Below are positions 10,090-41,440 of a stretch of 46,147 nucleotides of DNA, piece by piece. The translations under genes and the position numbers were made by a program. This stretch comes from a virus. Where the stretch lies: positions 1-46,147 of the IMG/VR virus record IMGVR_UViG_3300017752_000026; one strand, written 5' to 3'. Within the stretch, counting starts at the first letter, position 1, and every line of letters starts with the position of its first letter. The notes beneath the pieces were generated by a model. That model was given only the letters and a program-made list of their open reading frames with translations. It was not told where the DNA came from and made no database searches.

Positions 10090-10505
10090 TCTATATGTCC
10101 AATATCCACACCAGCAGTCACGAGGAATACGTTTCCTGCATCATTCTTATATTGATTTTTCCAAACTACGCGAGAAATACCAGATTGGTAGATAAGTTTC
10201 GCGCAATCAAGGCAAGGTGAGTGAGTGGTGTATAAAGTAGCACCCTCACAACTCTCACCAGACCGAGCCACCTTCGCGATGGCATTTGTTTCAGCATGCA
10301 GCACTTCGCGTTTAGTGACTGGCATATTACCAAACTCATCTGTAGTTTCACATTCGTTCGTCCAACCAGACGGCATGCCATTATATCCGATAGAGATGAT
10401 GCGATTATCTTTTACGATAACTGCTCCCACCTGTAGTCGTTTTGCCGAAGACAACTGAGCATAGACTTCAGCTGCCTTCATGTGTGCTTTATCCCATTTA
10501 TTCAT
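10086..10505 (-). CDS. cd: dCMP deaminase
   Basis: A 139-residue zinc deaminase of the T4 Cd type, converting dCMP to dUMP for thymidylate synthesis. The zinc site is H70-A-E72 with the proton-shuttle glutamate, and P97-C98-L-D-C101. GYNGMPSG near residues 40-47 is the usual substrate loop. T4 Cd is longer (193 residues) because of an allosteric insert that seems to be missing here, so dCTP/dTTP control may differ. It is the first gene after the promoter at 10532-10560 and so heads the hypermodification operon, consistent with a need for dUMP and thymine nucleotides. Confidence 0.92.
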   Translation of the reverse strand: MNKWDKAHMKAAEVYAQLSSAKRLQVGAVIVKDNRIISIGYNGMPSGWTNECETTDEFGNMPVTKREVLHAETNAIAKVARSGESCEGATLYTTHSPCLDCAKLIYQSGISRVVWKNQYKNDAGNVFLVTAGVDIGHIE

Positions 10506-12052
10506 TACAACTCCAGTTTCTTTATTTTATAATCATATATGAATTTTTCCAAAATGTCAAGGGAAGGTGAGAAAGAACCCAACTCTTTGTATGACTTCAT
10601 CATATCATTGAGTGTGTATCCCGCGACGAACCATTCATAGAATTTATAAGGGTTTACACCAAATTGCCAGTGATCATCAGCATACATAAGACAAGCCTTC
10701 ACGATTGCCTCCCAAGAATTGTATGCATCATTCTCCCAAGGTATAGAGAAATAATCGTCAGAGACGCCTGTTGTTAATAACCTAATGTAATTCTTAATCT
10801 CCATCGAAATATTATCGTCTCTATAAAGAGATTCAATTCTTTCGTCATTTTCAATATAGATATCATTCCATGTATTATCTGAATATCCATAATTCTTGTA
10901 ATCTCGAGAGAAGACTGATGTGTTAATTAATGTCCCCTCTCGAGGTATGAATAATGGATTAATCGTCAACGACTCTCCCTGCCAATTGTTTTTAATCCAA
11001 CTCCACGTATTATCTATCGTCTCCTCAGTGTCGTGAGGTAGTCCAATAATGAGACTGATCAGACCTTTATAGAAACCTGTGTGTTTTTTCATGTATTCTT
11101 TTGTATAGAGGATAGTCTCTTTCAACTTATCAGGATCCATACCTTTACCGATTGACTTAGCTGATGCATGATTAAAGGATTCTATACCATAGAAGTGACC
11201 ATTGTAATTCATACGTGCGAGATGCTCAATGTCCTCTGGTCTAGCAGCAAGGAGGTCTGCTCTGATATAACCATGAAAATGTGGTTTGAAATCTAACTGC
11301 TCGACTACATCAGCATATTTAATTACTTTCTCAGTATAATCATTAAATGTCTCATCAGCAATTGAATATTTTGTGATGCCATATAGATCGAAATTTGTCT
11401 TTAAGTTTTTCTCGAAGTCGACAGCTGACCGAGTATGATCGTCACGGACACCTAAAATTGGGAATGTGCAAAACTTACATTTGAAGATGCATCCTCTAGC
11501 ACATTCCATAGTCAGAGATTCATTAGGGTCTAGAAAGTCTCTTTCCTCATATTCGATAGACAAATCATCCATTGGGAAGGATGGATATTCATGTAATGCT
11601 TCAATGACACGGCGAGTTTCACCCTCTTCATTCCATGGTCTATCTTCATATTTTACAGTCCCGCGAAGTATCTCTATCATTGCCTTTTCAGCAAATCCTA
11701 CAACGTGATAATCTACATTCAGTTGATGTATTGTTTGGAATGATTGACTGCCAGCCACAGTCTTGATATCAGGATAGTTTTCCTTGATCCAATCTACAAA
11801 CTCACACACTGTAGGGAAGTTGATATTGAATGTGCCTCCGAAACCTATCACCTCTGTGTCAGCGTTCACGCGACTTTTGACTAATGACTTGAGTTCATCC
11901 AATGACCATGACATCAAGAAGTCAAACACTTCTACATCATAGCCATAATTTCTCATGAATGTGGCAATGCGGTGTGTCCCTGCACTTCTGCGGACAGATG
12001 GGACACCAGTATTTAATTCAAACGTGCCGCCAAATAAAAGCGCATCGCTCAA
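10505..12052 (-). CDS. B12-type radical SAM protein, paralog 3
   Basis: The 515-residue protein has an N-terminal Rossmann-like region of the cobalamin-binding type (strands EVIGFGGTFN, IKTVAGSQSF, YHVVGFAEKA) and a radical SAM core with the cluster motif C-I-F-K-C-K-F-C after MECARG, near residue 183. Later marks are SIADETFND, YGIESFNHASAKSIGKGM and LIIGLPHDTEETIDN. It shares these with the genes at 31381-32940 and 32937-34556, so the three are paralogs. Family members do methylations, ring rearrangements or C-C bond formation. The N-terminal domain lacks an obvious D-x-H-x-x-G B12 motif, so B12 may be bound base-off without that histidine or not at all. It overlaps the SGNH-like gene by ATGA. 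Confidence 0.82.
   Translation of the reverse strand: MSDALLFGGTFELNTGVPSVRRSAGTHRIATFMRNYGYDVEVFDFLMSWSLDELKSLVKSRVNADTEVIGFGGTFNINFPTVCEFVDWIKENYPDIKTVAGSQSFQTIHQLNVDYHVVGFAEKAMIEILRGTVKYEDRPWNEEGETRRVIEALHEYPSFPMDDLSIEYEERDFLDPNESLTMECARGCIFKCKFCTFPILGVRDDHTRSAVDFEKNLKTNFDLYGITKYSIADETFNDYTEKVIKYADVVEQLDFKPHFHGYIRADLLAARPEDIEHLARMNYNGHFYGIESFNHASAKSIGKGMDPDKLKETILYTKEYMKKHTGFYKGLISLIIGLPHDTEETIDNTWSWIKNNWQGESLTINPLFIPREGTLINTSVFSRDYKNYGYSDNTWNDIYIENDERIESLYRDDNISMEIKNYIRLLTTGVSDDYFSIPWENDAYNSWEAIVKACLMYADDHWQFGVNPYKFYEWFVAGYTLNDMMKSYKELGSFSPSLDILEKFIYDYKIKKLEL
10532..10560 (-). promoter_or_regulatory. Early sigma70-like promoter of modification operon
   Basis: Minus strand: TTGACA at 10560-10555, 17-base spacer, TATGAT at 10537-10532. 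It lies inside the 3' end of the radical SAM gene and is 27 bases from the dCMP deaminase start. The next same-strand promoter is at 4827-4800, so one transcript can cover dCMP deaminase through kinase. Confidence 0.7.
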
Positions 12053-28263: not shown

Positions 28264-29043
28264 TTACGATTCAGTAAGTGTAGCAGCAGTTGATGTTACG
28301 TCATCAGCACCTGTTGCACTGATAACACAACGATACTTGTTAGTGCCAAGACCTGTGTTGTCTGAAATATTCAAAGTAGCTGTTGTTGCTGTAGAGTATA
28401 CACCGCCATTTGAGATGTTACCAAACGACCCTGTGCCGCCTGTCTGCAACTGCCACTGGAAGGTCTGTGTGCCACCCGTGCCAGAAATTGTAGAAACTAC
28501 TGCAAATGTTACTGCATCACCTGTAGCTGAAGTGTCATCAGCTGGCTGTGAGGTAATACTGATCAAGAAGTCTTCAAACTCTGTATCTTCAGCGTCACCA
28601 GTAATGCCGTTTTTCGACAATGCTACGAGTGTTTCTGAAATTTTACGAGAACCGTTAGTGCGGACGTGAACCCAACCAGCATGACCAGCACCAATGTCTG
28701 GGTTAGCTGCCATTTCGTTTTCGTCAACGCCGAAAACTGTTTCAGAGGTAAAACCACCAACTGAATTGGATTTGATCAGACCACTTGGCTTTTCACTTAA
28801 TGTGTAAGCAGCACCAGCACTTTGAGCAACAATAGCTGTTCCTGGAGCATCAGCATTTACAACTGTAGCAGCTGTATTTGAAGCAATTGCTGTAATTCTG
28901 AAATCAATAGAGTTAGCAGTAAGGACATCCCCTACTTTTGCTTCTGTAGTAAAGGCAGTAGATGTGCCTGTCACAGCCCCAGCTGTTGACAAAGCAATCG
29001 TGCCTGTCGACGTTTTATCGTCTGTTTTTCCCCAACCTGACAT
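28264..29043 (-). CDS. Virion structural protein with Ig-like domain
   Basis: The 259-residue protein begins MSGWGKTDDKTSTGTIALST and has a long beta-rich N-terminal part, a conserved-looking middle (AGWVHVRTNGSRKISETLVA) and a C-terminal Ig-like domain (QPADDTSATGDAVTFAVVST, TFQWQLQ, YRCVISATGADDVTSTAATL) with the tryptophan and Y-x-C of the fold. Ig-like domains decorate the capsids and tails of tailed phages. The late promoter at 29082-29089 and an AAGGAGAGAAAA ribosome site make this a strongly expressed late gene. Confidence 0.82.
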   Translation of the reverse strand: MSGWGKTDDKTSTGTIALSTAGAVTGTSTAFTTEAKVGDVLTANSIDFRITAIASNTAATVVNADAPGTAIVAQSAGAAYTLSEKPSGLIKSNSVGGFTSETVFGVDENEMAANPDIGAGHAGWVHVRTNGSRKISETLVALSKNGITGDAEDTEFEDFLISITSQPADDTSATGDAVTFAVVSTISGTGGTQTFQWQLQTGGTGSFGNISNGGVYSTATTATLNISDNTGLGTNKYRCVISATGADDVTSTAATLTES

Positions 29044-29073: not shown

Positions 29074-30825
29074 TTACTTGTTATTTATATGACTCTGGAA
29101 CGTATCGTGTGAATCGTGACCACTATGCATCTTTTCGCGATCAGCAGGTTTAGACGATTGATATTTCGTCATAAACTTATGCGCATCAGCTTTAGAAACT
29201 TTATGCTCTTTGCCATCTTTAAATTTGACTGGCTTACCGATTGATACAGCTTTACGAAGCTGCATTACGATGTGACCACCATGACGTTCTTCACCAGCTT
29301 TAGTGCCAGTATGAGTTGTCTTCTTATCTTTTTTAAGAGGAGCCATGCCTTTACTATCAGAGCGCATCGCACGGCGAGCGTCAGAACGAGCATCTTCTTT
29401 GATTCCTGGGTCAGTTGCCTTTTCGCGGCTGGCTACTTTCCTAGCAATCCGAGCAGCTTTACGAGCAGCTTTAGCGCGCATGTCCTCAGAATCACCGTAA
29501 CCTTCATCGACAGTTTCTTCATTGGCTGTCTTTACAGTATATTTGCCGCCAACTTTATCGATCATGTTGCCACGTTTAGCGTGATCATCGGCTTTTGCTT
29601 TTGTCATAACACGCGAGTCATTTTTGTGTGTGCCATCTTTAGTATGATACTGAACGATGTGTGTTTTATCTTCTTCGTTCACAGCATCCTCAGCATATAC
29701 AGCACCCTTCTTGACCATACGCTCGGCAGCTTTAGCTGTCGTCATCTTTACACGTTGTGTCTTAGGGCTGGCAACCATAGTATCTTTGGCGGCTGGCTTC
29801 TTCTTGAATGTTTTAAGACCTGTGCCTTTTTCACCAGACTTTTGTTGGTAATCAATACGGCTCATAGCACCTTCGTTTACACCCTCACTCATGCTAGATG
29901 TGTAATTCTTTTCATGGTGTGCATGATACGCTTTATGTGCAGCAGAATTATGGCCACCCAAGTGTTTATTGACAAAATCTTTATGAATTTTATGTGAATC
30001 TGGGTGACCTATTGAGCCAGCATTATAATTGCCTTCATGCTCACCATTTTTATGTATAGCATCAGCAACTTTTTGACCATGCTTTTTAACATTTGCAGCA
30101 TGTGCCTTTTTAATTGGACCATTACCAGACTCGCCAGTTTGTCTATCAACGTGCAGTGCAACCATCTTAGCAGCAGATTTCGCGATTTCACTTTCATAGA
30201 TAACTTCTTCGTTCTTAGCAGAGTGAGCACCGTCGACTTTAGTGAAGAATGCTTTCTTCTCGTCGTCTGACATATCTTTCAGTGACTTACCAGTTTTCTT
30301 CAGCATGGCTGCAAACTTGGCTTTATAGGAGCTGGACAGATTGTCTTCAGCAGGTGATTCTTCAGACATAGTTTCTTCTCCAACTTTCTTAACAGTGTGA
30401 GGCATTTTCTTACGCATACGATCAGCGATGCCCATGTTTTTAAATGCTTTTTGGCTTGCTTCCTTATCAGAGCGAGCCTTGACAGTCGTGCCGCCTTCGC
30501 CTTTGATTCCTACTGAGTAATTACCATACTCATCGAGCTGTTCGGTATCCTCAGTTTGATAGCGATTTTTCTGAGTATGTTGTTTGGCTTTTTGGAAAAC
30601 TGTATCATCGCCAGTCACAATAAACATCATAGACTGAACAACCTTATTTACAGCGTCGCGCTCTTGAGGATTCATTGTTTTACCAGCTTGTAGTTTAGCC
30701 AGACCTCTGTGGAGCATAGGAAGTTGGGCTGGTGACATCAAACCTTGACGAACCAACTGATCAAGTTTTTTCATATTGACGTTGGCTTCGCTGAGTTTGT
30801 TGCGAATCTCTTTTTCGATAGACAT
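29074..30825 (-). CDS. Large basic virion/internal head protein
   Basis: Start at the ATG at 30825 (MSIEKEIRNKLSEANVN), because AAGGAGATAAAA precedes it and the late promoter at 30846-30853 would put the longer start (30843) at the transcript end. The 583-residue product is low-complexity, lysine- and histidine-rich, with many helical basic stretches (AHAANVKKHGQKVADAIHKN, MRAKAARKAARIARKVASRE) and acidic breaks with NEE/YE/DE elements. L-S-E-A near residue 12-15 and several later L/I-x-E sites resemble prohead-protease cuts. It is likely a capsid-internal, DNA-binding protein made as a precursor, of a kind common in marine T4-like phages. Confidence 0.72.
   Translation of the reverse strand: MSIEKEIRNKLSEANVNMKKLDQLVRQGLMSPAQLPMLHRGLAKLQAGKTMNPQERDAVNKVVQSMMFIVTGDDTVFQKAKQHTQKNRYQTEDTEQLDEYGNYSVGIKGEGGTTVKARSDKEASQKAFKNMGIADRMRKKMPHTVKKVGEETMSEESPAEDNLSSSYKAKFAAMLKKTGKSLKDMSDDEKKAFFTKVDGAHSAKNEEVIYESEIAKSAAKMVALHVDRQTGESGNGPIKKAHAANVKKHGQKVADAIHKNGEHEGNYNAGSIGHPDSHKIHKDFVNKHLGGHNSAAHKAYHAHHEKNYTSSMSEGVNEGAMSRIDYQQKSGEKGTGLKTFKKKPAAKDTMVASPKTQRVKMTTAKAAERMVKKGAVYAEDAVNEEDKTHIVQYHTKDGTHKNDSRVMTKAKADDHAKRGNMIDKVGGKYTVKTANEETVDEGYGDSEDMRAKAARKAARIARKVASREKATDPGIKEDARSDARRAMRSDSKGMAPLKKDKKTTHTGTKAGEERHGGHIVMQLRKAVSIGKPVKFKDGKEHKVSKADAHKFMTKYQSSKPADREKMHSGHDSHDTFQSHINNK
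29082..29089 (-). promoter_or_regulatory. T4-type late promoter (TATAAATA)
   Basis: A perfect TATAAATA on the minus strand, about 40 bases before the structural gene at 28264-29043 and inside the end of the gene at 29074-30825. Confidence 0.8.
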
Positions 30826-30845
30826 TTTTATCTCCTTGTTCATAT

Positions 30846-30853
30846 TATTTATA
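30846..30853 (-). promoter_or_regulatory. T4-type late promoter (TATAAATA)
   Basis: A perfect TATAAATA on the minus strand with transcription expected near 30840, followed by AAGGAGATAAAA and the ATG at 30825. It decides the start of the internal head protein. Confidence 0.82.
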
Positions 30854-30859
30854 AAAGGA

Positions 30860-31384
30860 TCAACTTATAAGTAAATGAACCCTATCTGTAACACCTGCAT
30901 TATAGACAAAATGTTGTTCTTGTGTGTTTACTAGATAAAAATGCGGCATCGCCTTCATATGATAAGATATTAGCTTATCTTCCTTGTGAAATATGTAACT
31001 ATCGGGGTTAGTTTGAATCACAAAATGTAATCTTTTATTAGCATCGCTATGCATTTTCAACCCAGTTTGAGTTGCTTGTGTCATGTATCTGACTCGACCA
31101 AGAGGAAATCCTGTCAATTCACATATTCTTTCACACACAAATTTCGTATATCTTGGTGTTTGGTCGTTCCAAGTATTGAATGCGGTATCAAATAAACCTC
31201 GATGAGTTAATCCACCCTCTGAATCCCACCACTTATTTTCAGTGACAGTATGGCGATGTCTGAGACCTATTTGTTTGTATGACTCTTGCGGAGACCATCC
31301 CGAAAGTTCTTTACATATTCGATAGTCATCGACCATTTGGTCAATGTCAACATCTAGTTGATTCATTGTTCTCAAAAAACTCAT
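30860..31384 (-). CDS. Aspartyl/asparaginyl beta-hydroxylase-like oxygenase
   Basis: The 174-residue protein carries the Asp/Asn-hydroxylase core: H112-x-D114 in KMHSDANKRLHFVIQTN, then FYLVNTQEQHFVYNAGVTDR with distal H158, and R168 in DRVHLLI for 2-oxoglutarate. R-L-H-x-x-I-x-T-N is a close match to PF05118-type enzymes. The gene is coupled by ATGA to two B12-type radical SAM genes and a sulfotransferase, in a block set inside late virion genes. A shared substrate, perhaps a virion protein or a cell-surface glycan, is an inference. Confidence 0.78.
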   Translation of the reverse strand: MSFLRTMNQLDVDIDQMVDDYRICKELSGWSPQESYKQIGLRHRHTVTENKWWDSEGGLTHRGLFDTAFNTWNDQTPRYTKFVCERICELTGFPLGRVRYMTQATQTGLKMHSDANKRLHFVIQTNPDSYIFHKEDKLISYHMKAMPHFYLVNTQEQHFVYNAGVTDRVHLLIS

Positions 31385-32940
31385 AGCGATAACTTCGCCT
31401 CTTTATAATTATCTAAAAATTCTCTAATTGGTTCATACTCTGGTAACGGTTGCCCTACTATATCAGATATCTCACCAAAAGATTTTTTAGCAAAGGTCTT
31501 CCAATATGGTATATACCAATTCGATACACCCTGATGTGGTATGAATTCATTATTGAACCTCTGAGACCATTCTAATAAATCAAAGAAGTTCATACCGATC
31601 CTATCGTTTTTCCAAAAGAATGGGCGACTGGCTCTAAAATTGACATCTTTCATTCTATTAATAGCTTCGATGTTTTCAGGTGTCCTCGGTAAGTGAGAAG
31701 GAAACCATTCTTCTAGCGACACATCAGACTCTATATATCCAAGTTCTTCATAATTGTAAGATAGCGGCGGTAATTTCGACATGCTATCTGATGTATGTCC
31801 CTTTGGTTGAATTAGCAATGGGTTAATATAAACCGATTGCCCTCTCCAATGATTGAATAACCAATCTTTAGTCTCATTCAGAGACTCCCATGTGTCGTAA
31901 GGAAGTCCTGATATGAGTGACATCGTTGTCTTATATATAGGTGCGTTTTTGTTGAAATATTCTCGCATCTCTAACAGACCTTCGCGTAGTCTATTTTTAG
32001 CCATACCTTTATGAACCCACTTAGCGGATTTTTCATTGAAGGATTCAATACCGTAATGGTGAGATGTAAACCCCATGGCAATCATATGTTCCCACTGTTC
32101 AGGTTTAGCAACAGCGATATCACCGCGAGCGAAACCTGTTATGAATGGCTTGAATGGCAACTTCTTAGTTACATCTGCATACTTACGCAACTTCTCAGTA
32201 TAATCGTTTGTAGTCTCATCTCCAGATATGTAATTGGTGACACCGAAATTATCATAGTTATATCTCAACTCGTCTTCCCAGCATTGAGCAGTTCGAGTAT
32301 AATCTTTTGTCACACCCAATGCAGGGGCAGCACAAAACTTACACTTAAAAACACAACCCCTAGAAAATTCTGCATTCAAAAATTCATCAGGTTGTATGAA
32401 GTCTCGCTCTTGATATCTGGTAGGTAATTCTTCTTTTGGATATGCCTTATAAAAATGAAGAGCATCTATGACCTGCAATTCTTCGCCATTCAAATTGATA
32501 TGTTTACTGATAATTGGTCTCTTACCAGAACCGTGCAACCAATTTAGAAGTTCAACGATTGCATACTCACCCCAACCTTGGATATAATAATCTGCCTTAA
32601 ATTCTTCGACAGTTGTTACGATTGGACCACCTGCGATAATTGTGATATCAGGGTATTTTTCTTTGACCCACTCGAGAAATGGGTTCATGTGTTGTGCCCA
32701 TAATGCTTGAAACAAAGAACTCACACCCAGAAACTTTGTCCCCTTATTATACCTCATCGTCCAGAGTAGTTTTAATTCCTCAACGGTAAAGTGTGGGACA
32801 AAGTCTATAACCTCTACGTCCCACCCAATAGCACGTAAATGTGTAGCGATCTTATGCCCACCATAAGAACGTTTTGGATCTGCTAGGATCGATTCGGGAG
32901 TGTAGCCAGTATGTTCATACAACTGACCACTAAAGATCAT
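31381..32940 (-). CDS. B12-type radical SAM protein, paralog 1
   Basis: Start at the ATG at 32940 (MIFSGQLYEHTGYTPESILA), which forms ATGA with the stop of paralog 2. In the 519-residue product the N-terminal Rossmann region has TKFLGVSSLFQAL, ITIIAGGPIVTTVEEF and YIQGWGEYAIVELL. The radical SAM cluster motif is C-V-F-K-C-K-F-C after EFSRG. Then come SGDETTND, YGIESFNEKSAKWVHKGM and LISGLPYDTWESLNE. It is paralogous to 32937-34556 and 10505-12052. Q-E-R-D-F-I-Q-P-D/T-E before the cluster is shared with paralog 2, so those two are the closest pair and probably arose by tandem duplication. Confidence 0.82.
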   Translation of the reverse strand: MIFSGQLYEHTGYTPESILADPKRSYGGHKIATHLRAIGWDVEVIDFVPHFTVEELKLLWTMRYNKGTKFLGVSSLFQALWAQHMNPFLEWVKEKYPDITIIAGGPIVTTVEEFKADYYIQGWGEYAIVELLNWLHGSGKRPIISKHINLNGEELQVIDALHFYKAYPKEELPTRYQERDFIQPDEFLNAEFSRGCVFKCKFCAAPALGVTKDYTRTAQCWEDELRYNYDNFGVTNYISGDETTNDYTEKLRKYADVTKKLPFKPFITGFARGDIAVAKPEQWEHMIAMGFTSHHYGIESFNEKSAKWVHKGMAKNRLREGLLEMREYFNKNAPIYKTTMSLISGLPYDTWESLNETKDWLFNHWRGQSVYINPLLIQPKGHTSDSMSKLPPLSYNYEELGYIESDVSLEEWFPSHLPRTPENIEAINRMKDVNFRASRPFFWKNDRIGMNFFDLLEWSQRFNNEFIPHQGVSNWYIPYWKTFAKKSFGEISDIVGQPLPEYEPIREFLDNYKEAKLSL

Positions 32941-34556
32941 ACCGTGATCCATGATAGCTTCTTCAGTTTGTAGTTTTCAATAAAGGCATTTCGTTTATCG
33001 TCATTCTCTTTGTAACGGGGATCGTTTGTCAACTCGTAACCTGTCATATTGATTACGTCATTCAAATCATAAACGCCGAACGTCGTCCATCTATGAAAAT
33101 TCCAAGACAAACATTTTTGGGAGTGGACGAAACCATTCCTAGTAATATCTGCATAATATTTAGCTTGAATCTTGGTTGCTTCCCAAAAATTCATGATGTC
33201 TGTTTCCCACGCCATCGGGACAGCATGTTTCTTTTTATATTCTTCAGGGAATCGACCTACATGTTGGAAGTGAGTTTTGACTTGTTCTCTGATCAGTTCA
33301 GGGATTTGATTGTAATCAATATTCCAATCATCTACATTACCTTCTCTATATAATCCCGAAGATACTGCTGTTCTATCAAACTCAGAACTGTTCTCGGCAT
33401 AGATCGAATCATGTGACGTGGAAATAAACAATGGTGTTATAGCTATAGACTCATTGGGCATATTTTTCTGTAGCCAATTGATGCCATCATCGAAAGATTC
33501 TTCGGTCTCATTCGGTAATCCAGCGATGAGACTTGATGTTGACCGATACTTGTTATTATATTTGAGGAAAGATTCTCTACAATCCACCAACCCTTGCTTC
33601 AGGCGATCTACATTTAATCCTTTACCGATAGACTTAGCAGCGTCTTGATGAAATGACTCGATACCATAGAAGTGACCCCATAGACCCATCCGCTGCATAT
33701 TTTCCCAGTCGTTTTGTCTTGTTACAACTAGATCTGCGCGAGTGTATCCTGTCATATTCAAGTCATAACCTAGATCATCAACTACATTAGCAATACCGAG
33801 TAATTTTTCGGAACTGTCGTTGACAGTCTCATCAGCAATGGTATAACTCACCGTTCCCCATTGTTCATAATTTCGTTTGAGTTCATCATGTATATTGAGC
33901 ATATCCCGTTCAAAGTTACCCTTCATACCAATCAAATTATATTGACAGAATTTACATTTAAACTTACAGCCTCTAGCAAATTCTAAATTCAACCATTCTG
34001 TTGGTTGTATGAAGTCTCTTTCTTGATACCTTACTTGTAAATCTTTACACGGATACGCTGGGTGATGTGTATCCGAGCGTATGAGTTTTTTCATTCCAAG
34101 GTCAGTCTCGACTTCTTGGATGACGGGGTTTCCGTTACTATTTGTTAGCTTCTTGAGTAATTCCAGCAAACCATACTCGCCATAACCTGTGATATAATAA
34201 TCAAGATCAATGGGCATCATAGTGCTGAGGTTCTTTGAACCTCCTAACAGTGCTATGTCAGGATAGTTATCTCGCAACCATTGTAATTTTTTAGAAAGTT
34301 TGGCGGCATTCTTGGGAGTGTATGAAAACATAAAACTAACACCGATGAATACAGTATCAGATGTTACTCTAGATTCTATGAATTCTTCAAACTCGTCGTC
34401 GTCCCATTCATTGATGTAGTCACAAACCTCGATATCCCAACCTTCTTCACGCAAAAAAGATGCAATACGATACGCACCTGCAGCCCTCTTCATTGAAGTC
34501 CGTTCAGGCTCCAGTAGAGTCAGCTCCTCGTATCCACCTAGTAATATTCCGTGCAT
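32937..34556 (-). CDS. B12-type radical SAM protein, paralog 2
   Basis: The 539-residue product starts MHGILLGGYEELTLLEPERT. Its N-terminal domain shows VFIGVSFMFSYTPKNAAKLS, IALLGGSKNLSTMMP and YYITGYGEYGLLELL. The cluster motif is C-K-F-K-C-K-F-C in EFARGCKFKCKFCQYN, followed by IADETVNDSSEKL, YGIESFHQDAAKSIGKGL and SLIAGLPNETEESFDDG. The neighbouring genes are a sulfotransferase (TAATG coupling) and paralog 1. No D-x-H-x-x-G cobalamin motif is seen in any of the three, so cofactor use has to be tested. Confidence 0.82.
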   Translation of the reverse strand: MHGILLGGYEELTLLEPERTSMKRAAGAYRIASFLREEGWDIEVCDYINEWDDDEFEEFIESRVTSDTVFIGVSFMFSYTPKNAAKLSKKLQWLRDNYPDIALLGGSKNLSTMMPIDLDYYITGYGEYGLLELLKKLTNSNGNPVIQEVETDLGMKKLIRSDTHHPAYPCKDLQVRYQERDFIQPTEWLNLEFARGCKFKCKFCQYNLIGMKGNFERDMLNIHDELKRNYEQWGTVSYTIADETVNDSSEKLLGIANVVDDLGYDLNMTGYTRADLVVTRQNDWENMQRMGLWGHFYGIESFHQDAAKSIGKGLNVDRLKQGLVDCRESFLKYNNKYRSTSSLIAGLPNETEESFDDGINWLQKNMPNESIAITPLFISTSHDSIYAENSSEFDRTAVSSGLYREGNVDDWNIDYNQIPELIREQVKTHFQHVGRFPEEYKKKHAVPMAWETDIMNFWEATKIQAKYYADITRNGFVHSQKCLSWNFHRWTTFGVYDLNDVINMTGYELTNDPRYKENDDKRNAFIENYKLKKLSWITV

Positions 34557-35287
34557 TAAATCAAGTCTCTTAGTGTATCCCTCACCTTTGGGTAATATTC
34601 TTCAAATAGTTGTTTGACTTCTGCAGCATTCTCGATATGCTCATATGGGTCATCGGGCAACACCTTAACATTTTTACCTGCATCATCTTTAGGAATATCA
34701 TCATAGTCCATTTTGATGTATTCAAATTCTGGTAGCTGACTTTCGTAGTCTAGTTCAGTGTGGACTGTTTGGAAAATATATCTCCTCATCCGACTAATGT
34801 CAACAAATAATTTGTTTTCGTTTTTACTGTAACGCCAATTATCATTTGTCTTTGCAAAGTAGTAACTGATCAGCCTCTTTTCAAAGTCTCTGTCGAGGCG
34901 AATAAACTTGAAATTGTGTTCTTGTAGGATAGAGATGGTTTTTTCTAACCCCAAGAAAATGTATTGCTCGCCATAAAAGAAGCGACATGATAGTGGTTGG
35001 AAGTTGTCAGCTTGTGATAGTAAACCTATCTTACGATAAACCTCTTCCCAAAAATTCACCGACTGAAACTCACCAGCACCATAATCTCTATCGTTAGAAA
35101 TTATAGTGTCGCCTTCTAAATAGACTTCAGTATCTCTGATTGAAAATGGATGAAACAACTCTCCCAATTTGGCAGAGTCGCCATAGACTTCGTTGAGGTG
35201 TTTGTGTATTTGGTATTCTAAGAGGTGACTACCAGTTCTCGGCATACCGAACACACACCATCGATGGTGTTTCAAATTGTCAATCAT
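34556..35287 (-). CDS. PAPS-dependent sulfotransferase family protein
   Basis: I start at the ATG at 35287 (MIDNLKHHRWCVFGMPRTGS); an ATG at 35335 would overlap the DUF5872-like gene by 31 bases. F-G-M-P-R-T-G-S-H-L-L is the 5'-phosphosulfate binding loop. FKFIRLDRDFEKRLISYYFA holds the R-x4-x-R-S/L-x-S/Y-like element of the 3'-phosphate site, and a late YIKMDYDDI precedes the C-terminal helix. The 243-residue size fits bacterial and phage sulfotransferases that move sulfate from PAPS to sugars or tyrosine. Stop and the radical SAM start share TAATG. The acceptor is unknown. Confidence 0.78.
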   Translation of the reverse strand: MIDNLKHHRWCVFGMPRTGSHLLEYQIHKHLNEVYGDSAKLGELFHPFSIRDTEVYLEGDTIISNDRDYGAGEFQSVNFWEEVYRKIGLLSQADNFQPLSCRFFYGEQYIFLGLEKTISILQEHNFKFIRLDRDFEKRLISYYFAKTNDNWRYSKNENKLFVDISRMRRYIFQTVHTELDYESQLPEFEYIKMDYDDIPKDDAGKNVKVLPDDPYEHIENAAEVKQLFEEYYPKVRDTLRDLI

Positions 35288-35304
35288 AATATAGTTATTT
35301 AGGT

Positions 35305-35919
35305 CTAGTTTTCGACCTTTGCGCCACCACGCCATTGTTTACATGACCAATAACGAGCTTTCGTTTTTGGTCCAGGATTGTCGCAATTGTGTCGAGCACG
35401 GAAGTTTTTGCGGCGATTAGGATCGTCGCGTTTGATTTCCATATTCGGATCACCGAAGCGGACTACTTTAATCTTCTTCGTTGATGGGTCACGAACATAT
35501 ACCTTAAACTTTTTGTTAGGATTCTCAGAGGTGCGGATGATATTATTCAGCTTCACACCCTTCTTTTCGCCATCCTCCATGATGGTTACTTCTTCCTGAA
35601 TCTCATCCTCGGCACAATTACCACAGCACTGATCAGTGCCGCAATTAGTATGCTCTAGGTCTTCTAGAAACTTCTCATCGTCGTGCTCAGTGTGGGCAAG
35701 GTCAGTATCGTGGTTAAGTCCACCCTTTTTCTTCTTGGTAATAAAGGCATTGACACGAGCATGTCCCCATTGCTGAGGGGTAGTTCCTGGACGGTGACCA
35801 GTTTTCCAAGCAGCAACACCACGGTTGTAAACTTTACGGAGCGTGGCTACAGAGATGCCTGACTTCTTAGACTTATCAGCCATAGCACCTTCGATTAGAA
35901 CGTCATTAAAACTTTTCAT
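35305..35919 (-). CDS. DUF5872-like protein with capsid-targeting-like N-terminus
   Basis: The 204-residue protein begins M-K-S-F-N-D-V-L-I-E-G-A, close to the T4 internal-protein targeting peptide cut after glutamate 10. Next is the DUF5872-type block VATLRKVYNRGVAAWKTGHR, TTPQQWGHARVNAFITKKKK, then a cysteine-rich acidic patch (TNCGTDQCCGNCAEDE). The C-terminal domain is basic (RDDPNRRKNFRARHNCDNPG, KARYWSCKQW), repeating a second motif known from marine phage proteins. It is likely packed in the capsid. It shares ATGA with the 35-aa gene upstream. Confidence 0.75.
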   Translation of the reverse strand: MKSFNDVLIEGAMADKSKKSGISVATLRKVYNRGVAAWKTGHRPGTTPQQWGHARVNAFITKKKKGGLNHDTDLAHTEHDDEKFLEDLEHTNCGTDQCCGNCAEDEIQEEVTIMEDGEKKGVKLNNIIRTSENPNKKFKVYVRDPSTKKIKVVRFGDPNMEIKRDDPNRRKNFRARHNCDNPGPKTKARYWSCKQWRGGAKVEN

Positions 35920-36023
35920 TTTTTCTTTCCCTTACTACCAATGATAGTATTGTTCTTCCAGAGCCGCTCCATCGCATCAGCTTTCTTAACTTGCTTGAGT
36001 TTTGGCTTCGGTAATTTCTTCAT
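35916..36023 (-). CDS. Basic peptide, 35 aa
   Basis: ATG at 36023-36021 overlaps the TAA of the polyprotein gene (TAATG), and the TGA at 35918-35916 overlaps the next ATG (ATGA). The product (MKKLPKPKLKQVKKADAMER...) is very basic (KGKKK end). Coupling at both ends makes it convincing despite its size. A DNA- or capsid-binding peptide is possible. Confidence 0.6.
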   Translation of the reverse strand: MKKLPKPKLKQVKKADAMERLWKNNTIIGSKGKKK

Positions 36024-38470
36024 TATTTATTCTTTTTAATTTTAAACTTCTTGGCTTTATACTTAGAAGCAGAGCCACCCTTTTTGACCTTAAACTTCTT
36101 CGCCTTTTGTGATGTCATTGAACCACGCTTCTTCAGTCGATTCAACTCTGCTTTACGCATTTGAGGAACCATACGAACAGCGATACGAGCAATCAGTGGT
36201 TGGAAGCGTTGAATCATTTTCTCGAGACGAGACTTCTCAGCTGGCGGCAACGAACTTTTGTCACGACCACGGAGCAGACGCTTATACATCATACCACGTG
36301 CGCCACGAGTAGCACGCATACGGATCTTATCAGGTGTAGCAGACTTGCGCATCGCACGTGCACGGGCAACTTTGAGACGTTGCTTGTTACGGCGAGCAGC
36401 TTGGCGACGTTTGATACGACCGAGCGGCGTTAGTGCTTCAGTAACTTCAATATCCTTATGGACTTCTTCTGGATCTACTTCTTCAAAATCTTCAATTTCT
36501 TGCGGTGTGTAGATTCCAAGATCTACCATATCCTCGAGTGATAAGTTGTCTGCTTGATGCAGCATATCTTGAACATCCTCATCACTTATAGATAAGTCCA
36601 TTGGCTCTGCGATCTCAGGTTTACTGTGATCAGCAAGTTCCCAAAACTTTTTGATGTCATCAACGACATCGAGAACATTCTCACGCACGATAAACCCATC
36701 GCCGCGATCTTTGTAACCTTCTGGGATGGGCATGCATGCCTTACGCTGGCGGCAGTAGTAATGACCGTCCTGACACTGCACACCATCTTCTTCATTAATA
36801 CCAGTTTTGATAAAGGTCGTTGCCTTCTCTCCTGATTTTAGAGGTGTGCCTCCGAGTTTTTTAACATCAGCTTTATACTTAGCTGTGTTGCGAATCTTAT
36901 CACGATGCTTCTGCAGGCGAGCATGGGCAGATGACTTATACATTTCGTCCACAGCCTTGTAATGATTTTTCGTTTTCGTTTTGTTTTTCTTCGTAGTCTT
37001 TCCTGGCTCTCCTGGAGTAACAGCTTTCATGTATGCTGTCCCTTCAGGTGTTCCCCGCTCATACTTGTATTCCTCAGTCATCTCAACCATACCGCCGAGA
37101 ATCTTAGAGTCATACCTATTCTGAGCAGACTTGCCCATGCCTCTGAGTAATTCACCAGCGTGGAAGTATGGTGAGTGACGAGACTTACCGCCATGCGTCA
37201 TTTTATCTTTGCGCATACGTGCTAGAACCTTCTGAGCCAGTTTAGCATATTCTTTTTTGTAGATAGTTTTGGCTTTGATTCTATCGCTCATCGTGACTTC
37301 ATCAAACTGGTCTATCTTAATTTTATCGAATGTCTTTGTATCTTTGACGCGCTGTTTAGAGACACGCTTCTTGACATTGCGAAGTTTACCGATCTGCGGC
37401 AGCGTCATTGAATCGCGCTCTTCGGCTTCTTCGTTTTTAGGGACACAATTTGGAACCATCTTGTTACCCTTCTTTTTCATACCGACCTGCTTATGAGAGT
37501 CCCAGCACTTTTCATCTAGCGCATCCTCTTTCTTCAGCATCTTGTCAACATAATTAGTGTATTTTGATGGCTTAGTCTTGGCAGTTTTATCTCCAGGAGC
37601 TGGTTTATATGCCTTTGGATCGTCATCGCGCATCTTAGTTTGACGTTTGAATTGGGAATCACGAGCTGATTTAGTTGACTTACTCAAACCTTTGTGATAC
37701 TTTGCAGGTTGTGAACCTTTTTTACCAGCGATATCTGAGTCCTGTGGGACTGATGTTTTCTCATTCATGGTTTCTAATTCCTTAATCGCCTCTTCGCGCA
37801 TCTTCTGTTTTTGTGCGTTTGTAATCCACTCACGTGCCTTATGATTGCGGACAGGAGAACGAACAAAATACTGCATATCTTTGTATGCTCGTAAAGTATT
37901 CTTATCTACATTACTATCCGAGTTATTATCAACGATAGTCATATTCTGTTTGAATATTCGTTGAAACCCACCCATATTATTTTGAACATCATTCCACATA
38001 CGCTTCACGATGTTATCAGGTAATGTTCTAGACCTTTTACTATTACGCTCGAGAGCAGTCTCAAGGTCAGTGTTAACGAAAATCATCGCAATGTCATACC
38101 CCAACGACTGCAGCATGTTAGCTTGGCGTTCGATCTTAGTAATATCTTTGCCAGTGCCGTCTATCACCATGCCCAAACGACCTTGGATAAACAGCTGTTG
38201 CCTTTTATTTGTGAGGAGTTTGGCTGCCATCCGCATACTTTGACCCTTATCCGAATAGATATTTTCGGGAGTCGCATCCATGCCAGCAGCACGAAGAGCA
38301 GCTTCAAAGGCGTGGTCGGGGTTTACAGGTTTTAAACCGAGAGATGGCAGTCCAGTTCGACCAGCCATGAATGATTTACCAGATCCTGGACCACCTGCAA
38401 GGAACACTGCCTTGAAGATTCCAGGGTCATTCACACCCTCAGAAATAAATTCTACAAACTTTTCGTTCAT
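36023..38470 (-). CDS. P-loop kinase-headed capsid polyprotein, 815 aa
   Basis: The N-terminus MNEKFVEFISEGVNDPG looks like a capsid-targeting peptide (F-I-S-E|G). Next is a kinase domain of the zeta-toxin/polynucleotide-kinase type: VFLAGGPGSGKSFM Walker A (about 22-36), VIDGTGKDITK with the D-G-T motif, and an arginine lid (RNSKRSRTLPDN). From about residue 240 the protein becomes low-complexity and lysine-rich, with cysteine blocks (CWDSHKQVGMKKKGNKMVPN; DGHYYCRQRKACMPIPEGYK) seen in marine phage head proteins. A very basic end (RIKRRQAARRNKQRLKVARA) carries two copies of K-A-K-K-F-K-V/I-K-K. Several I/L-x-E sites suggest cutting into pieces. The late promoter at 38547-38554 fits late expression. 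Confidence 0.72.
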   Translation of the reverse strand: MNEKFVEFISEGVNDPGIFKAVFLAGGPGSGKSFMAGRTGLPSLGLKPVNPDHAFEAALRAAGMDATPENIYSDKGQSMRMAAKLLTNKRQQLFIQGRLGMVIDGTGKDITKIERQANMLQSLGYDIAMIFVNTDLETALERNSKRSRTLPDNIVKRMWNDVQNNMGGFQRIFKQNMTIVDNNSDSNVDKNTLRAYKDMQYFVRSPVRNHKAREWITNAQKQKMREEAIKELETMNEKTSVPQDSDIAGKKGSQPAKYHKGLSKSTKSARDSQFKRQTKMRDDDPKAYKPAPGDKTAKTKPSKYTNYVDKMLKKEDALDEKCWDSHKQVGMKKKGNKMVPNCVPKNEEAEERDSMTLPQIGKLRNVKKRVSKQRVKDTKTFDKIKIDQFDEVTMSDRIKAKTIYKKEYAKLAQKVLARMRKDKMTHGGKSRHSPYFHAGELLRGMGKSAQNRYDSKILGGMVEMTEEYKYERGTPEGTAYMKAVTPGEPGKTTKKNKTKTKNHYKAVDEMYKSSAHARLQKHRDKIRNTAKYKADVKKLGGTPLKSGEKATTFIKTGINEEDGVQCQDGHYYCRQRKACMPIPEGYKDRGDGFIVRENVLDVVDDIKKFWELADHSKPEIAEPMDLSISDEDVQDMLHQADNLSLEDMVDLGIYTPQEIEDFEEVDPEEVHKDIEVTEALTPLGRIKRRQAARRNKQRLKVARARAMRKSATPDKIRMRATRGARGMMYKRLLRGRDKSSLPPAEKSRLEKMIQRFQPLIARIAVRMVPQMRKAELNRLKKRGSMTSQKAKKFKVKKGGSASKYKAKKFKIKKNK

Positions 38471-38643
38471 TTTTTCTCTAACAGCTCATCAACAACACGT
38501 TTCACTGCTGGGCTATGATTACTCAGCAGTTTATATAATCCTACACTATTTATAAGATTTGTGCGTTCTTCAGCTGTTAGAGGAGTTGGACGGCGTTTCA
38601 ATCTGCTTAATCGATTGAATAACCTCCTAGAGACTCTGTCCAT
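38467..38643 (-). CDS. Hypothetical basic protein, 58 aa
   Basis: ATG at 38643-38641 and TGA at 38469-38467, overlapping the polyprotein start (ATGA). The product starts MDRVSRRLFNRLSRLKRRPT, then a helical part (LTAEERTNLINSVGLYKLLS) and a short coiled end. Arginine-rich at the N-terminus. It overlaps the gene upstream by 17 bases. Function unknown. Confidence 0.6.
   Translation of the reverse strand: MDRVSRRLFNRLSRLKRRPTPLTAEERTNLINSVGLYKLLSNHSPAVKRVVDELLEKK
38547..38554 (-). promoter_or_regulatory. T4-type late promoter motif (TATAAATA)
   Basis: A perfect TATAAATA on the minus strand, inside the 58-aa gene and about 77 bases before the polyprotein start. Position and motif fit a late promoter for the polyprotein. 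Confidence 0.55.
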
Positions 38644-38908
38644 CTTCTAATAATTCCCACTTACTATGATTAAATAATCTGCATTCGGGCTCACCATCAA
38701 TGGCAATACCTGTCCATTCATCTTTTAAGGCGTAGTGCGTTTGTGATTCGATACTTGAGAGCCACTCATCCTCACGCTGAACCATATAAAGTTCACATTC
38801 AGACCTTAGTTCGAATGATGGATCGAACATTACCATTTGGTATCTATTATCTGTAAAGCTGCCATCTGGTAAAATACCCAACATCCAGAAAACGATTACA
38901 AACTTCAT
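38627..38908 (-). CDS. Hypothetical exported protein, 93 aa
   Basis: A short hydrophobic N-terminus (MKFVIVFWMLGILPDGSFTD) may be a signal peptide. The remainder is acidic with two cysteines (RSECELYMVQRE; PECRLFNHSKW) that could pair in the periplasm. It is directly downstream of the endolysin gene (ATGA), so it may serve in lysis or be an exported partner. Confidence 0.6.
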   Translation of the reverse strand: MKFVIVFWMLGILPDGSFTDNRYQMVMFDPSFELRSECELYMVQREDEWLSSIESQTHYALKDEWTGIAIDGEPECRLFNHSKWELLEDGQSL

Positions 38909-39366
38909 TCGATTAGCCCAACAGAATATTCTGTTTTACCATCAACTTTGGCGGCTGTGAGAACTGACTTACGATTACCCTCTGTCTTATACGATACATG
39001 CACCCAACCAGAGTCAGGGATTCCAGGAGTGTAGAACTCTAGGATAAGTTGGTCAAAGTCTAAGTTTTGTTCAATCCAAGATGCAAGTTCATAGTTGGCA
39101 GTTCCAGGGCATTCGATATCAACTGCCTGCCCCTTACAATGTTGTGAGTTAGATGAGCCACCCACCGCTTCATTAAGTTCTGGACCACGATAACCTGAGT
39201 TGATTACAGTCACGCCAAACTGATCACGAACAGACTGAACCACATTTTCGAAAAGTTCTTTTGCTGCTTCCATATGTTCACCTTCAGGAGTATTATCGAT
39301 GCCACGACGAGTTGCCGTTTGGCTCTTGGTAAATTCCGAGAGCGTGAAATTCTTGGAGAGTCTCAT
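38905..39366 (-). CDS. Endolysin, M15-type D,D-/L,D-peptidase
   Basis: Start at the ATG at 39366 (MRLSKNFTLSEFTKSQTATR), with AAGGAA upstream. The 153-residue protein is the peptidase M15A kind: FTLSEFTKSQTA near the N-terminus, VINSGYRGPELNEAVGGSSN, the zinc ligands in SQHCKGQAVDIE (H-x6-D), and a last histidine in GWVHVSY. It cuts peptide cross-links in peptidoglycan at lysis. There is no signal peptide, so a holin or other route would be needed for export. It lies in the late group, far from the candidate spanin pair at 13157-13538. Confidence 0.88.
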   Translation of the reverse strand: MRLSKNFTLSEFTKSQTATRRGIDNTPEGEHMEAAKELFENVVQSVRDQFGVTVINSGYRGPELNEAVGGSSNSQHCKGQAVDIECPGTANYELASWIEQNLDFDQLILEFYTPGIPDSGWVHVSYKTEGNRKSVLTAAKVDGKTEYSVGLIE

Positions 39367-39368
39367 CA

Positions 39369-39953
39369 CTATTCCTTAATAAAAAATGAAAACGATTTGT
39401 ATGATTCTTTAATTTGCATGCCGTCACGAACATCTTTGAAAAGTTGTTTCGCGCCACGATATCCAGCTGGCAGTCCGCGTTTGAAACTGGCGAAGTCATT
39501 ATTCTTAGCATGTAAGCGCATCTTACTTGCGCTGATACCCGTCACACCCTCGGCGTCAGGATCGCGCTGTCCTGCAGACACGCATTTTACGGATTTAAAC
39601 GTAAAATCCCTCCCATTATATCTGTCGAGGAGATTTTGGAACTCATTTACTCTATCAGACCCTGCTACCATAATCACCTTATCATACTGACCAGTCAATA
39701 ACTTCAGCTGTGATATGAAGTTAGGGTGCTGTTTGTCTGACAGTTTGAAATTAGTAGACGGGAACATAGCGTTCAGGTGCTTCAGTTTCTTCTCTGGAGC
39801 GACAGGATTCTTATTCTTATCGAATGAGTGACTCGCTATAATGAGGTGGTCAGCACGGTTCTGTTGAGCCATGCGCTTCACCTTAGTCACGAGTTTACCG
39901 TGACCATTTGTAGGTGGATTCATACGCCCGAATGCAAATACTAGAGTTCTCAT
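39369..39953 (-). CDS. Nucleotidyltransferase of the NMNAT/cytidylyltransferase fold
   Basis: I start at the ATG at 39953 (MRTLVFAFGRMNPPTNGHGK), which forms ATGA with the stop before it. The N-terminal G-R-M-N-P-P-T-N-G-H-G is the adenylyltransferase motif (T/H-x-G-H). VTGISASKMR near the C-terminus is the I-S-x-x-x-x-R motif that closes on the triphosphate. The pair of motifs and about 194 residues fit NMN adenylyltransferases (NadR/NadM type), which make NAD+. The C-terminus ends S-Y-K-S-F-S-F-F-I-K-E, which looks like a targeting peptide. Other substrates of this fold (pantetheine phosphate, CTP-linked) cannot be excluded. Confidence 0.8.
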   Translation of the reverse strand: MRTLVFAFGRMNPPTNGHGKLVTKVKRMAQQNRADHLIIASHSFDKNKNPVAPEKKLKHLNAMFPSTNFKLSDKQHPNFISQLKLLTGQYDKVIMVAGSDRVNEFQNLLDRYNGRDFTFKSVKCVSAGQRDPDAEGVTGISASKMRLHAKNNDFASFKRGLPAGYRGAKQLFKDVRDGMQIKESYKSFSFFIKE

Positions 39954-41194
39954 TTGTCCCATGCCTTAATAGCTGTGAAATTATTGAAACTAAACTCCAT
40001 CCTATCAACGAGTTTGACAGCATTACCACCCACTCGGTCGATCGCAACATAACCCTCTGGGGATGTAACTTTGAAACCATTGGCAGTTTTTATGAATGTG
40101 CCGATACTCTTCACCGTATTTAGCTTGTTGACAATCAAATTTTTCGCTTCAACGATACCAGCCATAAATGCAAATATATTAGAGAGTAATTGCTGATGCG
40201 ATTTCAGTAATGTGATTGTTTCTTTTTTACGCTTTTCGAGAGCCTGTTGGCTTTTCTCAGTCTTGAGTTTACCAATCTCGGTATCAAACTTGTCAGTTAC
40301 GAACTGGACATAACCAGCAGCGTGTGACTTATCAAGTTTTTGTTGCGCTCTGACCTTTGAGTTGATGTATGTTTTGACGCTTGCACCAACCATCTTGCCA
40401 GTCAGAGAGTTCTGTAAGTTTAGGAATGCACTCAATTTTGTGCTATCAATCTTACGGAATGTAAGACCCACACCTGATAGGACACGTGTGACCTGATCAG
40501 TCTCAGCCTTAGTAAATGTTGCCGAACCAGCTGTGTCTTGGTAAGTCGCATCATCCATCCAGACAGATGATACTTTACGCAGACCGCTGATGTTTGCACC
40601 AAAAGATGCACGCATTTCAGACAACGATCGTCCAGTGTATGTCGTATGCCAAACCACACCAATCTTAGCTCGTTTAATCTTAGCGTCAAGAGGCGTTCCC
40701 TGAGGAACTGCATAGACGATTGTGTTAGGTTGAAAAGTTGTGTGCCTTTGACCATCGATCATACTGGACTCAAGGTCATCTGAAGTAAACATCAGATCTC
40801 CCTGAATTACATTTGTAATGCCTAGTTTAGAAAACTCTCTAAGAGCAATACCAAATTTAGTTTTAAGTGCTTGAGGCAGTCTAGCATCGCCAGTGATGTC
40901 AGACTGTGACTTATATAATAGGGGTGTTTTATTGAATACTGATTTCTTGGCGACGAAAAACTTACCATCTGAAGGATCGATGCCTGCAAAAATGGCTGGT
41001 GCGCCATCCCACTTAACAGTCATGTTAATAGAGGAACGGCTGCTTCCAGCCAACATATCTCTTAATGAACGAAGAAAATTGATAGAGCCTCTCGCTCCAC
41101 CGATACCAAAGTTCAGGATCTCGTCTTCAATGTGTTCGAGGTGCAGGTTCTTGCCCTGTGCATCTTCATTCAGAAATGTCCTTAGACTTTGCAT
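39950..41194 (-). CDS. KWDG ligase-like protein (DUF6267-like)
   Basis: The 414-residue protein opens with M-Q-S-L-R-T-F-L-N-E-D-A, a capsid-targeting-like peptide. It then has K61-W-D-G64 in NMTVKWDGAPAIFAG, the motif I arrangement of nucleotidyltransferase-fold ligases and capping enzymes (K-x-D-G). A phenylalanine-lysine strand (KFFVAKKS) follows, then NVIQGDLMF where motif III-type E/D sits, and KIGVVWHTTYTG, a motif IV/V-like element. The C-terminal 180 residues are helical and basic. From memory it resembles DUF6267 of marine phages. An RNA or DNA ligase/adenylyltransferase activity is plausible but not proven. Confidence 0.68.
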   Translation of the reverse strand: MQSLRTFLNEDAQGKNLHLEHIEDEILNFGIGGARGSINFLRSLRDMLAGSSRSSINMTVKWDGAPAIFAGIDPSDGKFFVAKKSVFNKTPLLYKSQSDITGDARLPQALKTKFGIALREFSKLGITNVIQGDLMFTSDDLESSMIDGQRHTTFQPNTIVYAVPQGTPLDAKIKRAKIGVVWHTTYTGRSLSEMRASFGANISGLRKVSSVWMDDATYQDTAGSATFTKAETDQVTRVLSGVGLTFRKIDSTKLSAFLNLQNSLTGKMVGASVKTYINSKVRAQQKLDKSHAAGYVQFVTDKFDTEIGKLKTEKSQQALEKRKKETITLLKSHQQLLSNIFAFMAGIVEAKNLIVNKLNTVKSIGTFIKTANGFKVTSPEGYVAIDRVGGNAVKLVDRMEFSFNNFTAIKAWDK

Positions 41195-41432: not shown

Positions 41433-41440
41433 TATTTATA
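41433..41440 (-). promoter_or_regulatory. T4-type late promoter (TATAAATA)
   Basis: A perfect TATAAATA on the minus strand, ten bases before the ATG of the coiled-coil gene (41423) and directly after the stop of the 41-aa gene. It likely drives the group down to the endolysin. Confidence 0.7.

Follow-up and report, generated by a model that had tools for sequence, protein, structure and literature searches.

Candidate T4-type capsid-targeting sequences on enzymes and multi-module proteins of a T4-like phage

Introduction

What could lead three unrelated proteins of a T4-like phage to begin with closely similar short peptides? The question is raised by IMG/VR virus record IMGVR_UViG_3300017752_000026, of which positions 1 to 46,147 were analysed (this whole stretch of 46,147 nucleotides is called the window below); it is a fragment, 46 kb long, from a T4-like phage. 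Three open reading frames on its minus strand, at 36023-38470 (815 amino acids, aa), 35305-35919 (204 aa) and 39950-41194 (414 aa), were confirmed to start with MNEKFVEFISE|G, MKSFNDVLIE|G and MQSLRTFLNE|D, respectively (bars mark the putative cleavage point), just as the initial annotation had read them. It had likened these N-termini to the peptide MKTYQEFIAE of T4 internal proteins, and MKTYQEFIAE|A is indeed how ipII and ipIII start in NC_000866. In this peptide residues 4 and 7 serve mainly targeting and residues 8 and 10 processing; the T4 protease gp21 cleaves after L/I-x-E, and Asp at residue 10 blocks processing while targeting is retained (PMC9026906, a review). Counted back from the cut, residues 4, 7, 8 and 10 are P7, P4, P3 and P1, the positions constrained in the window peptides.

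The answer proposed here is that the window N-termini, ten to eleven residues long, are probably functional T4-type capsid-targeting sequences (CTSs), borne as movable add-ons by enzymes and modules that would be packaged as gp21-cleaved cargo and ejected. The resemblance noted in the initial annotation holds, and the CTS reading is well supported by the conservation of the pattern, its add-on nature, the gp21 and gp23 genes of the closest relative and the detection in virions of the neighbouring gene's orthologue in four isolates. That the three proteins themselves are packaged, as the annotation also proposed, is something we infer; packaging and trimming of the tagged proteins appear likely. 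The CTS and gp21 are already known. These phages, enzyme cargo, C-terminal placement and modular sites were not found described in open-access papers, and neither was capsid targeting in cyanophages (subscription papers lay outside the scope).

Three N-terminal tags of the T4 type

The 63 genes of the window were scanned with the pattern [FYLW]xx[FYVLIM][LI]xE|not-E/P, with P7 at residues 2-8. It fits 3/63, exactly the 815-, 204- and 414-aa proteins, and a shorter form, [F/L]xx[F/V][L/I]xE|, likewise fits just these three of the 63. Chance alone would give 0.42 matches if internal positions serve as the reference (binomial P 0.0085) and 0.25 if N-termini are shuffled (P 0.0012); since the pattern was fixed after the sequences had been viewed, these P values are indicative and independent evidence must come from relatives. 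The peptides occupy 38438-38470 (815-aa protein; P7 F, P4 F, P3 I, P1 E), 35890-35919 (MKSFNDVLIE| of the 204-aa protein) and 41165-41194 (MQSLRTFLNE| of the 414-aa protein, a DUF6267 family member), all on the minus strand, and each ATG is preceded by a purine-rich stretch ending in GAAAAA. Across the 815-, 204- and 414-aa proteins, P7 is F, F and L and P4 is F, V and F, i.e. two of the six targeting positions are non-aromatic.

Relatives of the DUF6267 protein provide the independent evidence. The site is kept in 101/112 distinct relatives, among which the sequence drifts while the pattern is mostly retained. In 72 aligned distinct N-termini P7 is F/L in 64, P4 is Y/F in 59, P3 is L/I in 71 and P1 is E in all 72, with drift at the other positions, and the P1 Glu is encoded by GAA as well as GAG. 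The DUF6267 proteins of P-HM2 (MSKNTHLEHLED), Syn1 and S-SZBM1 are tagless and start directly at the domain. In AlphaFold2 (AF2) models the confidence score pLDDT is below 50 at residues 1-10 of the 815-aa protein and 1-18 of the DUF6267 protein; with tagless orthologues and a position outside the confident fold, the tag is thus separable from its cargo domain. Homologues of the 204-aa protein open in the same manner, with MNNFKDHLIE|GA in L002 and MKTFNDFIVE|GA in L003.

The machinery for cutting such tags is encoded by relatives. The closest long record, G001 (138,660 bases; 79% identity in DUF6267), and seven further long relatives encode an S77 prohead protease (gp21) and gp23, and the gp23 propeptides of most of them carry similar sites where they would be expected (QLSE|S in G001; GFLAE|A, GFMTE|A, LLSE|T and VFSE|A in others). 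Among annotated phages, Melnitz (Methylophilales), HTVC008M (Pelagibacter) and C48C1 are nearest.

As in T4 IPI, IPII, IPIII and Alt, the tag has ten residues with aromatic P7 and P4, L/I at P3 and Glu at P1, and as in the T4 internal proteins one tag precedes unrelated cargo at a late T4-type locus, with gp21 and gp23 in relatives. However, the T4 internal proteins are small and single-domain, Alt excepted, whereas the putative cargo here consists of RNA-ligase-like, polynucleotide kinase (PNK)-like and nucleotidyltransferase enzymes together with basic modules, and the tag also occurs C-terminally, with internal sites within multi-module proteins.

A tagged neighbour detected in virions

Between the tagged genes lies a cytidylyltransferase/NMNAT-like gene (39369-39962, minus strand; CTP_transf_like; phrog_3041, E 1e-62) without an N-terminal CTS. 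Mass spectrometry has detected its orthologue, the T4-GC190 cytidylyltransferase, in virions of S-SM1 (PMC3037559), S-SZBM1 (PMC9146016) and S-CREM2 (PMC10665884), and, under the name NMNAT, in those of S-SCSM1 (PMC9602691). All four of these virion-detected proteins start with a CTS (MKKFSAFLNE|A, MRFRQFIIE|A, MKNFSSFLTE|A and MKSFLQFLKE|A, in the same order). The sections of these papers available to us do not mention a CTS, and describe the protein as carried for an unexplained cause or as carry-over. The CTS would supply a mechanism for this carriage. Consequently, these phages probably carry protease-trimmed enzymes into the next cell. The virion table of S-SZBM1 (PMC9146016) lacks the tagless DUF6267 protein of that phage, a single fitting case. 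Conversely, some virion-detected neighbours in S-CREM2, e.g. gp156, have no clear CTS.

The cyanophage T4-GC190 gene and the window gene at 39369-39962 belong to the same family, have a similar neighbourhood and both bear a CTS, but the tag is N-terminal in those cyanophages and C-terminal in the window clade. There a tail comes after the enzyme domain, which ends with GM[QE][LI]KE; in the window the tail is KESYKSFSFFIKE, with a CTS-shaped SYKSFSFFIKE after QIKE| (39372-39404, minus strand). All 18 distinct tails of the related short cytidylyltransferases (18/18) fit [FY]xx[FY][LIV], against a mean of 0.85 and a maximum of 5 in 2000 shuffles; P7, P4 and P3 are retained and P1 is E, D or G, as in TYKSFSQFLRD of L004. 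The P-HM2 enzyme stops at the tail boundary (...RKGMGL), and S-SCSM1_93, marked as a virion protein, has the C-terminus RTFKEFLEYIE.

Internal cleavage-type sites

Sites of the [LIVMF]xE type upstream of modules were counted in distinct copies from 258 loci and compared with 500 shuffles. The 815-aa protein is a putative polyprotein consisting of the CTS, a PNK-like P-loop kinase, a KPAPGD module, a CWDG module (CWDxHKQVGMKKKG; CWDSHKQVGMKKKGNKMVPNCVPK) and a basic module. In it, TMNE|K precedes the KPAPGD module (37535-37735), ALDE|K the CWDG module (37433-37507), and VTE|A, with Glu678 (36437-36439), the Arg/Lys-rich basic module at the C-terminus (36026-36436); in the 204-aa protein TIME|D, with Glu115 (35575-35577), precedes the DUF5754 domain (all on the minus strand). 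Among copies of these modules an upstream site occurs in 38/49 (KPAPGD; shuffle mean 15.8, maximum 27), 22/35 (CWDG; 9.5, 17), 50/65 (basic; 34.2, 44) and 48/56 (DUF5754; 26.6, 38), and the P-loop (20/20, including 5/5 copies in internal position), DUF6267 (20/21), LHKWF (13/13) and DUF5824 (48/52) modules also exceed every shuffle, although the enrichment is weaker than it appears because the sequences are related and the linkers E-rich. For DUF6321 and DACYHK the upstream sites were not beyond shuffles or the copies were too few.

Several modules stand alone with their own CTS in one phage and lie inside a larger protein, after L/I/V/M-x-E, in another. The basic module is separate and tagged in C48C1 CDS88 (MLSFKQFVSE|V) and Melnitz_17 and internal in the window (VTE|A) and DLP6 (LTE|A); likewise, DUF5754 is standalone in C48C1 CDS96 and internal in the window. 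Given these internal sites, the 815- and 204-aa proteins are probably cut apart in the head, a polyprotein dicing suggested by their sequences. A comparable layout is seen in S-SCSM1_29 (L253 42662-44215), marked as a virion protein, in which most of several small Cys/basic modules follow an [IVLM]xE|[GDSK] site.

Weighing the capsid-targeting reading

A number of observations weigh against the CTS reading. The tag pattern was chosen post hoc, and gp21 was not found in the 46-kb window fragment. Among all 282 genes of S-SCSM1 the N-terminal pattern is no more frequent in virion proteins (1/48) than in the others (5/234; P = 1), and the CTS-bearing ORF30 of that phage is not marked as a virion protein. 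The reading moreover rests on relatives, in that virion detection covers orthologues of the neighbouring cytidylyltransferase and not the kinase and ligase-like proteins of this phage. As to the internal sites, the short L/I-x-E motif turns up often in acidic linkers, and kinship survives shuffling; EF-like and GLYANIH modules have no sites beyond shuffles; and records G008-G016, which carry DUF5824/DUF5754, lack the S77 protease and gp23 and were intended as a negative control, gave no discrimination under a loose site rule (12/13 vs 13/16, P 0.6). A looser tag pattern is about twice as frequent genome-wide as background (7 vs 3.6 in HTVC008M, 8 vs 3.9 in Melnitz). The tag is informative for this locus and these families and is no general predictor of virion proteins.

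The alternative that survives best accepts the terminal tags and takes the internal L/I-x-E sites as chance occurrences in acidic linkers, the large proteins being packaged whole. The E-rich linkers, the two modules without excess and the non-discriminating control speak for it, but several modules exceed every shuffle, with sites before all five internal P-loop copies, and the same modules exist as separate genes with their own CTS; we regard it as unlikely, if still a serious contender. It is also conceivable that abundant late enzymes co-purify with virions, in which case contamination would account for the published detections and chance for the motif. The authors on S-SCSM1 and S-CREM2 themselves raise carry-over; however, four independent isolates have a CTS on the same protein each time, and the tagless S-SZBM1 DUF6267 protein is missing from the virion table of that phage, which renders this explanation improbable. 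Very improbable, finally, is a conserved amphipathic helix of each enzyme's fold or for partner binding, with a coincidental Glu: F-xx-[FY][LI]-x-E is amphipathic and AF2 models residues 3-14 of the P-loop protein as a short helix, but the pattern lies on unrelated domains at pLDDT below 50, is absent from some cyanophage DUF6267 orthologues and recurs at the cytidylyltransferase C-terminus.

The putative cargo

The initial annotation called the 815-aa protein a P-loop kinase polyprotein, a label that fits its predicted modules. Its kinase module (37763-38437, minus strand; Pfam AAA_33/Zeta_toxin), with further modules behind it, contains a Walker A motif, GGPGSGKS, that is invariant among the relatives aligned. 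The AF2 model (pLDDT 84.9) matches 4gp6 and 4mde in Foldseek (E about 5e-7; 5.2e-7 for 4gp6) and has bacterial polynucleotide kinase as its nearest structure, followed by zeta toxins and adenylate kinases, with T4 Pnk (1ly1) at E 1.2e-5. On the basis of the model the module has a PNK/zeta-type fold, compatible with more than one kind of substrate, as zeta toxin and adenylate kinase score nearly as well as PNK.

The 414-aa protein (PF19782, E 3e-103) had been described as KWDG ligase-like. The motif order bears this out: K61-W-D-G64, Q-G-D133, E380-G381 and K394 are invariant in 28 DUF6267 sequences and follow ligase motifs I (KxDG), III, IV (EG) and V (K), as in an RNA-ligase-like covalent nucleotidyltransferase, with III-V assigned by eye. 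Structural comparison is less clear, since Z scores against RNA ligases (VIA) of 7.7 (Naegleria), 6.5 (T4 Rnl2) and 5.9 (Trl1) lie below the safe level for fold identity, Foldseek with the model gave no significant match (best E 0.18), and the sequence matched no solved structure. DUF6267 resembles a branch of the RNA ligase superfamily that has so far gone undescribed; no description of it was found in open-access papers. In S-PM2, DUF6267 appears fused to the cytidylyltransferase.

In the 204-aa gene (35305-35919, minus strand) the CTS is followed by DUF5824, the IME|D site and HVA1-like DUF5754. Pfam gives PF19141 at E 2e-18 and PF19058 at E 8e-5, the latter below the cut-off; the DUF5872-like label of the initial annotation was accordingly rejected in favour of DUF5824 + DUF5754. 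Nine records of 59-113 kb in which gp21 and gp23 were not detected (L205, L210, L221, L227, L233, L234, L236, L241 and L244) also carry DUF5824 and DUF5754. The two usually share a single protein, at times together with a GLWENIQKKKKR-type module, so their spread is not confined to T4-like phages. The end of the 204-aa gene is overlapped by 31 bases by the gene for a 259-aa protein (34556-35335, minus strand) with a sulfotransferase-like start, MPRTGSHLLEYQ, and no family match.

Proposed mechanism and related systems

In the proposed mechanism, large hydrophobic or aromatic residues at P7 and P4 would bind the proteins to the prohead scaffold, after which a gp21-type prohead protease would cut behind L/I-x-E. 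The tag would be movable, N-terminal in the DUF6267, P-loop and DUF5824/5754 proteins and C-terminal in the cytidylyltransferase, with internal L/I-x-E sites separating modules within larger proteins. We infer packaging of the three proteins, cleavage, polyprotein dicing, ejection and an enzymatic role. The cargo would leave the head together with the DNA and would comprise RNA-ligase-like, PNK-like kinase and nucleotidyltransferase enzymes as well as basic modules that probably bind DNA; it could act at once in the new cell, before phage transcription, with nucleotides or RNA ends as the simplest targets. The T4 Pnk/Rnl1 pair mends host-cut tRNA, and the PNK-fold kinase near an RNA-ligase-like enzyme in the window recalls it. 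NAD or a cytidylyl compound may be what the nucleotidyltransferase produces. More tentatively, and with the odds somewhat against it, marine T4-like phages might inject a gp21-cleaved repair and nucleotide kit (PNK-like kinase, DUF6267 protein and NMNAT/cytidylyltransferase) with basic proteins, all under one tag usable at either end, to counter RNA-cleaving or other host defence before phage expression.

Among the core genes of marine cyanophages is that for the cytidylyltransferase, which has repeatedly been found in virions without explanation; a T4-type tag offers one. Phages that infect SAR11, methylotrophs and cyanobacteria bear the same tag on further enzymes and multi-module proteins, and a rule based on sequence may thus predict the cargo of abundant ocean phages at this locus. 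C-terminal tags and protease-diced cargo, if true, would extend what is known of T4 packaging.

Head-packaged proteins of several domains are also found among the polyvalent proteins (Iyer et al. 2017, PMC5512222) and in the P1 Dar system, where DarB requires an N-terminal packaging signal (PMC9024508). However, polyvalent proteins are believed to rely on a metallopeptidase of their own, whereas the window sites match a gp21-type prohead protease, and the domains appear to differ. Similarly, many propeptides of phiKZ/SPN3US head ejection proteins are cut after Glu by a gp21-like protease, albeit in giant-phage families unlike the window phage.

Further features of the window

Three features had escaped the initial annotation: the cytidylyltransferase tag at the C-terminus, the cleavage-type sites inside the larger proteins and a fourth candidate at 29074-30843. 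This candidate, a 589-aa protein, has a weaker CTS-like N-terminus, MSIEKEIRNKLSE|A (30787-30825, minus strand; MSLEKEIREKLLAE|A in the G001 homologue), internal sites IYE|S, SMSE|GVNE|G and TVDE|G and no database match; one stretch resembles C48C1 CDS95, and the gene adjoins a head protein gene (28264-29043). From its sequence it is a likely candidate for a fourth head-targeted multi-module protein.

The box TATAAATA, the T4 late promoter consensus, occurs 7 times in the window (2.25 expected). On the minus strand it lies 77 nt before the 815-aa gene (38547-38554), directly before the small gene preceding DUF6267 (41433-41440) and directly before the 589-aa gene (30846-30853), which fits late synthesis alongside head proteins.

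An M15-type endolysin gene (38905-39369, minus strand) lies between the cytidylyltransferase and P-loop genes, a placement like that in T4, where ipII/ipIII adjoin lysozyme e. Three similar-looking proteins (GGTFELNTGVPS.., GGYEELTLLEP..), encoded on the minus strand at 10505-12052, 31381-32952 and 32937-34556, resemble B12-binding radical SAM enzymes by eye, and two of them are near the head-targeted genes.

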